Assembly (NCBI GenBank): GCA_017379015.1
Contig: JAFNXN010000015.1
Span: 1 to 55,995 of the forward strand
From: Alistipes sp.
GTDB lineage: Bacteria; Bacteroidota; Bacteroidia; Bacteroidales; Rikenellaceae
Reading direction: 5' to 3'
Length of the DNA stretch: 55,995 nt
The notes below the pieces were generated by a model, which worked only from the letters and a program-made list of their open reading frames with translations, was not told the DNA's origin and searched no databases. The translations under genes and the position numbers were made by a program. Below are positions 16,565-24,903 of this stretch, piece by piece. The first letter of the stretch is position 1. The number at the start of each line of letters is the position of its first letter.

Positions 16565-16636
16565 GCTGTTGTAGCTCAGTGGTAGAGCACTTCCTTGGTA
16601 AGGAAGAGGTCGTGAGTTCAAGCCTCATCAACAGCT
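16565..16636 (+). tRNA. tRNA-Thr (anticodon GGT)
   Basis: A full cloverleaf of 72 nt. The acceptor stem is GCTGTTG with CAACAGC and discriminator T. The D arm is AGCTCAGTGGTAGAGC. The anticodon stem is CTTCC/GGAAG around loop TTGGTAA, giving GGT. The T arm is GTGAG-TTCAAGC-CTCAT. CCA is not encoded. Everything from the anticodon loop onward is the copy supplied by the integrated element; the displaced chromosomal copy lies at 24861. Confidence 0.96.
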
Positions 16637-16637
16637 C
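16595..16637. other. attL core of the tRNA-Thr element
   Basis: A 43-bp stretch from the anticodon loop to just past the acceptor stem. It is repeated at 24861-24903 with only two differences (16614 and 16626), which form a base pair in the T stem. Recombination by tyrosine integrases within a tRNA anticodon loop is a known pattern. Confidence 0.88.
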
Positions 16638-16641
16638 AAAG

Positions 16642-16674
16642 GAGAGAAGACATCGTACTTCTCTCTTTTGTTTT
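16642..16674 (+). terminator. terminator just after tRNA-Thr (element-supplied)
   Basis: An 8-bp stem GAGAGAAG/CTTCTCTC with an 8-nt loop, followed by TTTTGTTTT. It differs in sequence from the hairpins after the displaced tRNA ends at 24911, 25071 and 25244. Confidence 0.8.
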
Positions 16675-16791
16675 ATATATACCTCTAAATCAGCCTATAA
16701 GCCCATTTATCAATGATTAACTTACATCTTACATTATAAGAAAAGAGTTAATTTATTTCCTTATTCCATTTATATTATCTATCTTTACCGT

Positions 16792-16828
16792 GAGTAAAAC
16801 AGAGTAAATACAGAGTAAATGGAGTAAT
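16792..16828. repeat. GAGTAAA repeats near attL (candidate integrase arm sites)
   Basis: GAGTAAA starts at 16792, 16802 and 16813, with a GAGTAAT variant at 16822, spaced 9-11 bp. They end 2 bp before the integrase ATG. The same motif recurs near attR, so they may be arm-type integrase sites that also allow autoregulation. Confidence 0.65.
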
Positions 16829-16830
16829 CT

Positions 16831-22999: not shown

Positions 23000-23439
23000 T
23001 TATGAGTGAGGTAAATAGCGACTACGATAAGCATTTAGATGTTGCCCGCAGTGTTGAGGCTACGCGAGATGAGAGTTGGAGGTATGTTGAGAAAATGCAG
23101 TATGCCATAGCATCAGGAGCGTTAGCCCTCTCTGTTACGCTTCTAACCTTTACTGATGTTGTGCAGTGTAAATGGGTGATTATCACTTCGTGGATACTCC
23201 TTGTAGCATCTATCCTCATAAACTTTGCCTCGCATATAGTGTCATATATAGCTTCAGACACTACAAGAGAGAAGATGTTTGATAGGATGAGAGAAGGAAC
23301 TCCATACGAGCCTAATGCTATCAACGACATCATCAATAAGTATAACAAGCCGACGATGTGGTTGAACATCATTTCGATTGACTTCCTCGCACTTGGTGTG
23401 ATTGGTTTATTGATATTCTTTATCATTCAGATACTATAA
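22996..23439 (+). CDS. small membrane protein coupled to the restriction enzyme
   Basis: A 147-residue protein with three predicted transmembrane helices (about 36-54, 60-84 and 120-145) and a charged N-terminal helix. Start at 22996 overlaps the enzyme stop codon (ATGA); a second ATG at 23002 is equally plausible. No family is recognised with confidence. The soluble-helix plus paired-membrane-helix plan recalls SLATT-type effector membrane proteins, but this is only a shape comparison. Translational coupling suggests a linked defence or immunity role. Confidence 0.7.
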   Translation: MIMSEVNSDYDKHLDVARSVEATRDESWRYVEKMQYAIASGALALSVTLLTFTDVVQCKWVIITSWILLVASILINFASHIVSYIASDTTREKMFDRMREGTPYEPNAINDIINKYNKPTMWLNIISIDFLALGVIGLLIFFIIQIL

Positions 23440-23443
23440 CGAT

Positions 23444-23578
23444 ATGAATAGAAAGCAACAGTATGGCAAGCAGATGGCTTGCGTACCACCTGAACGCCCA
23501 AAGGGCAATACAGAGGAGATTAGGGGAACAAAGATGAATACCGTTCCACCTCAACCACCAACACCAAAGGTCAAATAA
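23444..23578 (+). CDS. short ORF of unknown function
   Basis: A 44-codon frame starting 4 bp after the membrane-protein gene. It encodes a basic, proline-rich peptide (ends VPPQPPTPKVK) with no membrane segment or known motif. Tight spacing in the operon favours translation, but length and composition leave doubt. Confidence 0.35.
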   Translation: MNRKQQYGKQMACVPPERPKGNTEEIRGTKMNTVPPQPPTPKVK

Positions 23579-23727
23579 CCCTTTGAGTAATATGGTAACA
23601 GTAACGGCGGTCATTTTAGGTGGTCGCCGTTATTATTTGACTACACCCGTTCTTTGATAACACTTTTTCTCTCATTACCCTTGACTTTTTAGTGGTGGTC
23701 GCTATATTTATAAGAAAAGCTATAGCG

Positions 23728-24666
23728 ATGAAAAAGACGAACTACACAGTGAGTGTTGACAAGCTTCGGGTGTGCCTGAACACTCCTACTGACCTATATG
23801 GTTACTTGAAAGATTACTACACCCGTCACGCCGAGAACGGCATTAGGATACTCGATGAGGACGACTTTACTCTGACATTCATCGAGGAGGACGAGCAGAT
23901 GATGAGAGCGACATTGGATATGCGAGATGTCGGTGGCTTCTATCGCCTTGGGACATTCACATTCCACAATAGTGCCAAGTATGAGGGCAAAGCGTTCTTC
24001 TCGTTCGAGAACTCGGCTCTCTATCGTATCTATACGCGTCAGTACAACGGTGAGCCGATTAACCATATCTGCGACCTGATGTATGTCTGCGAGTTCTATG
24101 GGATGACCTTCAATAACATCACGGAGTTGGAGTTGGCGTTCGACAGTGACTATAACTACATCGGCAAGGTGCGTCGTATGATTAAAGACATCGACCACTA
24201 CGACCTCATCCTTAATGGTCGCCGTGTGACTAACGATGAAACGCTCGACGGTTACGGCGAATACTACAGCCGCTCCCGCACCAAGTTGGCGAAGTTGCCG
24301 ACGCTTTACTTCTCGCAAGCCAAGGATACTGATATGAAGATGCGCATCTACAACAAGGCACAGGAGTTGAACGAGAGTAGCCCGCACAAGGTGGAGCGAC
24401 TGAAAGAGTGGCTCGGATGGGATGACATTAGCACACTATATCGCGTAGAGGTAGTGATGCACAACACCAATGTACGCGAGTTCGTTGGTCGATACGGCGA
24501 GAGGCTTATTGGCGACAGTGGCGAGCATTGCAACATCCTTAACCTCTTGAATTCCGAGGAGTTCCGTTTGGCGATGTTCCTTGACAGTGCAGACCGAATG
24601 ATATACTTCCGCGACAAGCAGACGGGAGAACACATATCACTCGTTGAGGTAGCGACAGGTATATAA
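23728..24666 (+). CDS. putative replication initiator (Rep_trans-like)
   Basis: A 312-residue protein that resembles rolling-circle initiators of the Rep_trans type: N-terminal NYTVSVDKLRVCL, FHNSAKYEGKAFFSFEN, a MKMRIYNKAQELN segment, and RVEVVMHNTNVREF. I do not see a textbook HxH metal motif, so assignment rests on overall pattern. The ATG at 23728 is preferred to one 12 codons upstream because it starts the conserved part. It would let the excised element replicate or aid its mobilization. It is the last gene before attR. Confidence 0.5.
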   Translation: MKKTNYTVSVDKLRVCLNTPTDLYGYLKDYYTRHAENGIRILDEDDFTLTFIEEDEQMMRATLDMRDVGGFYRLGTFTFHNSAKYEGKAFFSFENSALYRIYTRQYNGEPINHICDLMYVCEFYGMTFNNITELELAFDSDYNYIGKVRRMIKDIDHYDLILNGRRVTNDETLDGYGEYYSRSRTKLAKLPTLYFSQAKDTDMKMRIYNKAQELNESSPHKVERLKEWLGWDDISTLYRVEVVMHNTNVREFVGRYGERLIGDSGEHCNILNLLNSEEFRLAMFLDSADRMIYFRDKQTGEHISLVEVATGI

Positions 24667-24860
24667 CCAATGTACCTGTCATAGCCATTAAAATACATTT
24701 ATAATACTGATAATCAATATAATATATAAATTAAAACTTAACTTAAATCTAATCCATAGATTAGTTAAGAAAGCAGAGTAAATAACGGAGTAAATGATTT
24801 TTAATAAACCTTGTATATAATTTATATTTAATTAGTTATATATTAAAAGAATTGTTTGCT
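24667..24860. other. AT-rich segment before attR
   Basis: No gene is seen. It is strongly AT-rich and contains GAGTAAAT at 24776-24783 and 24788-24795, matching the repeats near attL. These are candidate integrase arm sites for the right end. Confidence 0.6.
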
Positions 24861-24903
24861 TTGGTAAGGAAGAGGTCGTCAGTTCAAGCCTGATCAACAG
24901 CTC
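24861..24903. other. attR core (displaced tRNA-Thr 3' half)
   Basis: Matches 16595-16637 at 41 of 43 positions. The two changes swap a G-C for a C-G pair in the T stem (GTCAG/CTGAT). It lacks the D arm and 5' acceptor strand, so it is not a tRNA gene. Confidence 0.88.

Follow-up and report, generated by a model that had tools for sequence, protein, structure and literature searches.

A tRNA-Thr-integrated element of Alistipes with a Rep_trans-fold protein and a conserved hairpin at the end of its gene

The 55,995-nucleotide stretch analysed here (the window; contig JAFNXN010000015.1 of an Alistipes sp. assembly) contains, at 16595-24879, a real integrative element that occupies a tRNA-Thr(GGT) gene and is bounded by a 19-bp core. 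The element is probably an integrative plasmid or integrative mobilizable element (IME) built on a Rep_trans initiator, most likely an integrative rolling-circle plasmid for which mobilization is possible. Sequence comparisons show integration at the site, a swap of the tRNA T-stem, an empty site in a relative, horizontal spread, a Rep protein with the fold and key residues of Rep_trans initiators and a covarying hairpin that accompanies close rep genes. The hairpin, the T-stem swap and the candidate integrase arm sites are additions to an earlier note on the same DNA.

Integration at tRNA-Thr and the changed T-stem

The direct repeats of the tRNA 3' half that the earlier note had pointed out are borne out. 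The exact core (TTGGTAAGGAAGAGGTCGT) occurs only twice on the plus strand of the window, with 8,266 bp from one copy to the other. At 24861-24903/24906 the tRNA 3' half is repeated over a longer stretch, at 95% and 93% identity. Direct repeats of a tRNA 3' end, an integrase beside one end and a restored, intact tRNA, the features by which an integrative element is recognised, were all found.

The intact tRNA at the left end (Rfam score 72 bits) has the T-stem GTGAG/CTCAT, whereas the remnant at the right end reads GTCAG/CTGAT. When the flanks are joined at the core, a complete tRNA-Thr with GTCAG/CTGAT results, which is identical at 73 of 73 positions to the tRNAs of genomes G022, G025, G033 and G001. 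Neither a Rep match (E<=0.001) nor an integrase match (E<=1e-30) was found in these four genomes or in G020, which has an orthologous empty site with a right flank colinear with the window and with G017. The empty tRNA-Thr gene that the earlier note had asked for is thus present in a relative; the G020 tRNA itself carries the GTGAG allele. Three T-stem alleles were seen at this gene among the fetched loci, all immediately 3' of the core. The terminator that follows the tRNA is near-identical in G017, G135 and G149 and differs in G020, G022 and G025. Because the two ends carry different alleles and the reconstructed tRNA matches that of empty sites, the T-arm and the terminator came from the element: integration rebuilt tRNA-Thr with a different, internally compensated T-stem allele and a new terminator.

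The tRNA region was matched in 59 of the 61 genomes searched. No match longer than 150 bp was shared among nine genomes in the flanks upstream of the tRNA (896 to 9,207 bases), and the left-flank comparison therefore rests on the promoter stretch. In the window rny lies directly upstream of tRNA-Thr (14850-16497); it is absent from the upstream stretches of relatives that were compared, and in G022 it lies downstream of the tRNA. Given this position and the missing upstream match, rearrangement or misassembly is possible.

Related elements and their cargo

At the same cut-offs, 15 of 180 same-genus genomes gave Rep matches. Nine of these run almost the full length (41-100% identity), one is a broken fragment (G120), and the other five are distant and partial (29-33%). 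Integrase matches were found in nine of the 180, two of them only 29-30% identical. Measured between core positions on one contig, the element spans 8,266 bp in the window, 8,260 bp in G017, 9,014 bp in G108 and 3,899 bp in G177. The search among relatives that the earlier note proposed found the same kind of element bounded by repeats in several genomes, and recurrence of the two-ended structure shows that it is not a chance arrangement. With this and the empty site, the refuting outcome named in that note did not come about. The ends lie on separate contigs in G135 and G149, a single end was recovered in G131, G031 and G036, and the core was not found in G159. The left-end region of G017 occurs on two contigs, which may reflect strain variation or assembly.

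The relatives differ in cargo. G017 shares the restriction-modification gene, with a diverged segment and a different following open reading frame (ORF); the 147-aa hydrophobic protein encoded after this gene in the window is present in G131 and replaced in G017. G031 carries a UvrD/HRDC helicase, and G108 an OEP-HlyD operon (efflux-type) plus a third ORF that has no Pfam match. G177 has integrase, resolvase and rep only, among ORFs of at least 60 aa, and in its integrase Pfam shows a SAM-like domain only, not the catalytic domain.

Nucleotide identity of the integrase gene between the window and G135, G149 and G017 is 95.1, 93.6 and 93.6%, respectively, compared with 79, 79 and 80% for the chromosomal gene ygiQ and 85, 83 and 88% for rny. 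The gene of the helix-turn-helix (HTH) regulator is 97.1% identical in G149 (over 174 nt) and 97.9% in G017; over its initial 2 kb, the restriction-modification gene of G017 is 98.2% identical to that of the window. As the integrase DNA is closer between species (94-95%) than are the chromosomal genes (79-88%), these comparisons show that the element family spreads horizontally and imply that it has been mobile recently.

The Rep protein

Fold comparison places Rep in the Rep_trans group, RepDE/RepSTK1 type, with 15-19% identity in the structure alignments. This comparison was needed because a profile search of PDB sequences brought up nothing but two unrelated proteins, matched weakly at E 0.2 and 0.31. 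The key residues are D11, D139, R206, Y208, K210, E213 and E241; the RIY.K..E motif and D11, D139 and E241 are invariant, as set against the residues named in PMC4797284 by motif reading rather than superposition. By these residues Rep has the catalytic Tyr, the basic neighbours and the three acidic metal ligands of Rep_trans initiators.

The five distant Rep_trans-like matches in the genus (L056-L060, in G082, G003, G166, G151 and G201; 29-33% identical) come from genomes lacking the hairpin pattern described below. A 69-aa ORF lies just before rep in two loci (L088 77-286 and L089 5830-6039), and of the two the one in L088 has a match to the DNA-binding motif NUMOD3 (9.5e-6).

A hairpin at the rep stop codon

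The sequences around 13 rep loci were compared. In all 12 loci with a complete rep 3' end, the pattern AGGTATAT-AACCA-ATRTACCT, or a close form of it, either overlaps the rep stop codon or comes immediately after it; the thirteenth, G120, has a broken rep and no hairpin. The rep of G177 (39% identical) has an earlier stop, which leaves the hairpin beyond the ORF, and coding therefore does not explain why the hairpin is conserved. In the hairpin alignment (A2) 96.2% of cells pair and ten cells are changed on both sides, values that none of 500 shuffles reaches; its covariation score was likewise reached by 0 of 500, and slid versions of the alignment pair in 11-51% of cells. Exactly nine of the 180 same-genus genomes carry the hairpin and these are the nine with a close rep, whereas in 393 Bacteroidales genomes it occurs once, in the window's own. 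These comparisons show a hairpin that covaries and goes together with close rep genes.

Folded as DNA, the hairpin exceeds 199 of 200 shuffles in stability, and its sequence has no T-run, unlike an intrinsic terminator. Because pT181-type origins present their nick site in such a hairpin (PMC4797284), we propose it as a candidate rep origin or nick site; it could instead be an origin of transfer (oriT) or an mRNA element.

Genes and candidate sites inside the element

Gene content, judged on the seven scanned ORFs, is as the earlier note had it, with the integrase beside the left end, the Rep-like gene beside the right end and a compact restriction-methylation cargo, here a single-chain type IIG / ISP-like enzyme. 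None of the seven is a structural phage or conjugation gene, again as claimed; a weak terminase-small-subunit match (E 0.0064) falls on the HTH protein. The features are collected in Table 1.

Table 1 Features of the element and of its tRNA-Thr site in window coordinates
Feature	Position	Strand	Basis and remarks
tRNA-Thr(GGT)	16565..16637	+	Intact, forms attL; T-stem allele GTGAG/CTCAT, element-supplied; ARAGORN, Rfam, empty-site comparison
attL core	16595..16613	+	TTGGTAAGGAAGAGGTCGT; exact repeat
Hairpin terminator for the tRNA, element-supplied	16638..16676	+	Approximate limits; sequence and comparison with relatives
Candidate integrase arm-type sites, left end	16799..16820	+	ACAGAGTAAAT twice
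Tyrosine integrase, 454 aa	16831..18195	+	Arm-DNA-bind_5, SAM_5 and Phage_integrase domains
Small serine recombinase, 213 aa, resolvase/invertase type	18441..19082	-	PF00239 3e-33; phrog_125
WYL_2 (PF10902) SH3-like protein, 109 aa	19118..19447	-	Domain match
Cro/C1-type HTH regulator, 96 aa	19598..19888	+	Domain match
Cargo: predicted single-chain type IIG / ISP-like restriction-modification enzyme, 1015 aa	19952..22999	+	Type_ISP_C 1.3e-69; PADLOC REase_MTase_IIG 1082 bits
Cargo: small hydrophobic, probable membrane protein, 147 aa	22996..23439	+	Hydrophobic stretches judged by eye
rep: Rep_trans-fold initiator/relaxase (predicted), 312 aa	23728..24666	+	From an ATG chosen in this analysis
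Conserved hairpin overlapping the rep stop codon	24654..24680	+	Candidate double-strand origin / nick site
Candidate integrase arm-type sites, right end	24773..24795	+	
attR core	24861..24879	+	Exact repeat
attR: the chromosome's original tRNA-Thr 3' half, now displaced	24861..24903	+	Allele GTCAG/CTGAT

A first arginine is usual in tyrosine integrases. Motif reading did not identify it in the integrase of the element, where the stretch reads GMNLTD; the motifs KTGK, ARHTW, LGH and HY are present. Similar arm-type sites lie near both ends of the relatives, a supportive observation only, as the pattern is loose and gives a single match at some ends. The window holds seven such sites against 3.59 expected, and six of 100 shuffles reach seven; since this count alone is not significant, the case for the arm sites rests on their position and on the copies near both ends of relatives.

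The predicted type IIG enzyme combines a PD-ExK nuclease motif, the S-adenosylmethionine motif DPATGTG and NPPY in one chain. The family of the serine recombinase has 4363 records on plasmids, too common there for its presence alone to be informative, and a five-genome alignment gave no clear resolvase site between the WYL_2 and HTH genes.

Observations around the tRNA-Thr gene

Downstream of the element (24870-25330) lie tandem units of ~166 bp. Every unit contains the 3' end of tRNA-Thr, a hairpin terminator and an inverted copy of the tRNA variable/T-arm; two of the three also carry the palindrome CCCTCCTT..AAGGAGGG. Comparable stretches follow tRNA-Thr in other same-genus metagenome-assembled genomes (MAGs). 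In G015, G033 and G029 the allele of the local tRNA is also that of the inverted T-arm, with partial matches only in others. In G108 (L087, 11154 onward) the element-type terminator of the left end is repeated after the right end, which suggests that an element had integrated there before. Next to the right end in G177 (L074 1507-2715) and to a tRNA-Thr in G131 (C67:1953-3185) there are other tyrosine integrases (22.5% and 30% identical, respectively), and for this reason the gene seems to be a hotspot for more than one element family.

Proposed life cycle and evidence against it

In the life cycle that we propose, the tyrosine integrase, probably through arm sites at both ends, would insert a circular form of the element by recombination within tRNA-Thr(GGT), in the part from anticodon to variable arm, and integration would rebuild a working tRNA with 3' half and terminator from the element. 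After excision the Rep_trans protein would use Tyr208 to nick the hairpin where its own gene ends and start rolling-circle copying, and it may act as a relaxase when a conjugative element shares the cell. The small serine recombinase would resolve multimers, and the HTH and WYL_2 proteins would be regulators. Between the regulators and rep would lie a slot for exchangeable cargo, here the type IIG enzyme, which could protect the host and stabilise the element. As expected of an IME, the element has an integrase of its own and a nickase-family gene and, among the seven scanned ORFs, no type IV secretion system; the oriT is a candidate only.

Several findings weigh against this reading. The PF02486 score of Rep is 19.7 bits, below the Pfam gathering threshold of 29.6, so that the claim is one of fold and residues, not of Pfam membership, and the conserved G180 of RepD is Ser in Rep. 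Two of the five pair measures of the hairpin are unexceptional, namely pairs changed on both sides (3, reached by 91 of 500 shuffles) and further pair types (8, reached by 48 of 500). The exact hairpin pattern is absent from the five genus members with a distant Rep and from G284, G553 and G380 of the order sample, all with distant Rep matches. The circular plasmid pRGF00029, which carries a Rep homologue, also lacks the hairpin and has a Rep_3 initiator of its own; the homologue there consequently need not be the replicase. At 89, 87 and 87% (rep) and 85, 87 and 91% (serine recombinase) in G135, G149 and G017, respectively, these two genes are only slightly above rny, and rep is not above it in G017, so the element is a mosaic. 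The excised circle that the earlier note proposed to look for did not appear: the attP pattern was found neither in IMG/VR nor in ten assemblies, eight of them carriers, which gave attL-, attR- and empty-type junctions only. TraG (TIGR03783), the ATPase of Bacteroidetes conjugation systems, occurs in two of ten carriers and is absent from the other eight, including the window's own incomplete (78%) genome; in a survey in which many MAGs are incomplete, this suggests that a conjugative helper is not generally resident.

Alternative explanations

The strongest competitor, which we consider rather unlikely, holds that the Rep_trans protein is a conjugative relaxase only, the element being an IME proper whose hairpin is the oriT and whose circle does not replicate itself. 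Transfer of a streptococcal IME does require a Rep_trans relaxase (PMC7563843), and the plasmid homologue of Rep adjoins the separate Rep_3 initiator. MOBT relaxases, however, are defined by an N-terminal HTH plus PF02486 (PMC6499999), and Rep has no such HTH, its model beginning with a strand at 6-18, an argument qualified by the mention of one IME Rep_trans relaxase that lacks the HTH (PMC7563843). Moreover, no coupling protein is encoded among the seven ORFs, and in Tn916 and ICEBs1 the MobT proteins combine the two roles (PMC5704250).

That the insertion is instead a dead relic, old and no longer moving, we think improbable. The tRNA 3'-end remnants downstream suggest old events at the site and G120 holds a broken rep, but all seven named ORFs are open, the motifs sought are present except for a clear first integrase arginine, and the high identity between species implies recent movement of the family.

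Very improbable is a helper-packaged satellite of a filamentous or other phage with a phage-type Rep_trans initiator such as RstA of CTX-phi: small size, an HTH regulator and a rolling-circle-type initiator would suit it, but the seven ORFs include no structural or packaging gene beyond one weak HTH-type match, Rep found no tblastn match in 50,697 phage records, and none of 68 pattern stretches in IMG/VR encodes a relative. A megablast of the whole element against plasmids and phages likewise gave no match. Of the two origins that the earlier note had entertained, the plasmid-like or mobilizable one stood, backed by the Rep fold, its key residues and the homologue on a circular plasmid, and the satellite did not.

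The rep-hairpin module with other integrases

Outside the genus, in SIG159, RGIG9433 and BRZ, rep and hairpin are accompanied by a small serine recombinase, but the integrase is another one. In SIG159 it is a tyrosine integrase (Phage_integrase 7e-11), and the repeats of the tRNA-Ser 3' end measure 24 and 22 bp. RGIG9433 has a large serine recombinase; its tRNA-Leu repeat is 14 bp long, and this boundary is uncertain because the large serine ORF overlaps the tRNA call; BRZ has a large serine recombinase, and no repeat was found. We advance tentatively the broader idea that Bacteroidales may harbour an unrecognised class of integrative rolling-circle replicons, in which a conserved rep, nick-site hairpin and resolvase combine freely with integrases of the tyrosine or the large serine type (near tRNA-Thr, -Ser and -Leu) and with varied cargo. 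The smallest form, G177 (3.9 kb, three genes), would then rank with the smallest integrative mobile elements that are complete, and a single protein would be both its replicase and its relaxase.

With its candidate nick site, a family based on Rep_trans proteins would open another route by which small cargo (restriction-modification, an efflux-type operon, a helicase) spreads among gut Bacteroidales, and the short hairpin would be a marker for finding its members. The site also shows that an element can rewrite a host tRNA in its T-arm, an event recorded in the compensated T-stem alleles.

Comparison with known systems

A literature search of partial coverage, which is not proof of absence from print, found no description of the element. 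The pT181/pC221 family consists of plasmids rather than of elements with an integrase of their own. Its RepC/RepD proteins and RepSTK1 share with the element the Rep fold and key residues and present their nick site in a hairpin (PMC4797284), as proposed for the element, although they are 15-19% identical to its Rep in structure alignments. The 4.1-kb circular plasmid pRGF00029 (HG796787), from an uncultured bacterium, has a Rep homologue 33% identical over 95% and a small serine recombinase (34.5% over 139 aa, the ORF possibly cut by the record start), but differs in its Rep_3 initiator, in having no integrase among its listed ORFs and in its lack of the hairpin.

NBU1/NBU2-type IMEs resemble the element in their Bacteroidetes hosts, tyrosine integrases and insertion at tRNA gene 3' ends (Leu, Ser), but encode MobP relaxases (PMC5704250), none of which is found among the seven ORFs; NBU1, NBU2, Tn4555, cLV25 and Tn4399 all use relaxases of this kind, according to the same source. 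The streptococcal Rep_trans-relaxase IMEs (IME_oriT family, PMC7563843) share an integrase, a Rep_trans protein and cargo, and use the transfer apparatus of another element, as this one may do; they differ in belonging to Firmicutes and in that 53 of 64 lie in the oriT of an integrative and conjugative element, not in tRNA-Thr. The closest described kind is thus the Rep_trans IME of Firmicutes, whereas the Bacteroidetes IMEs described in the available part of PMC5704250 are MobP-based.
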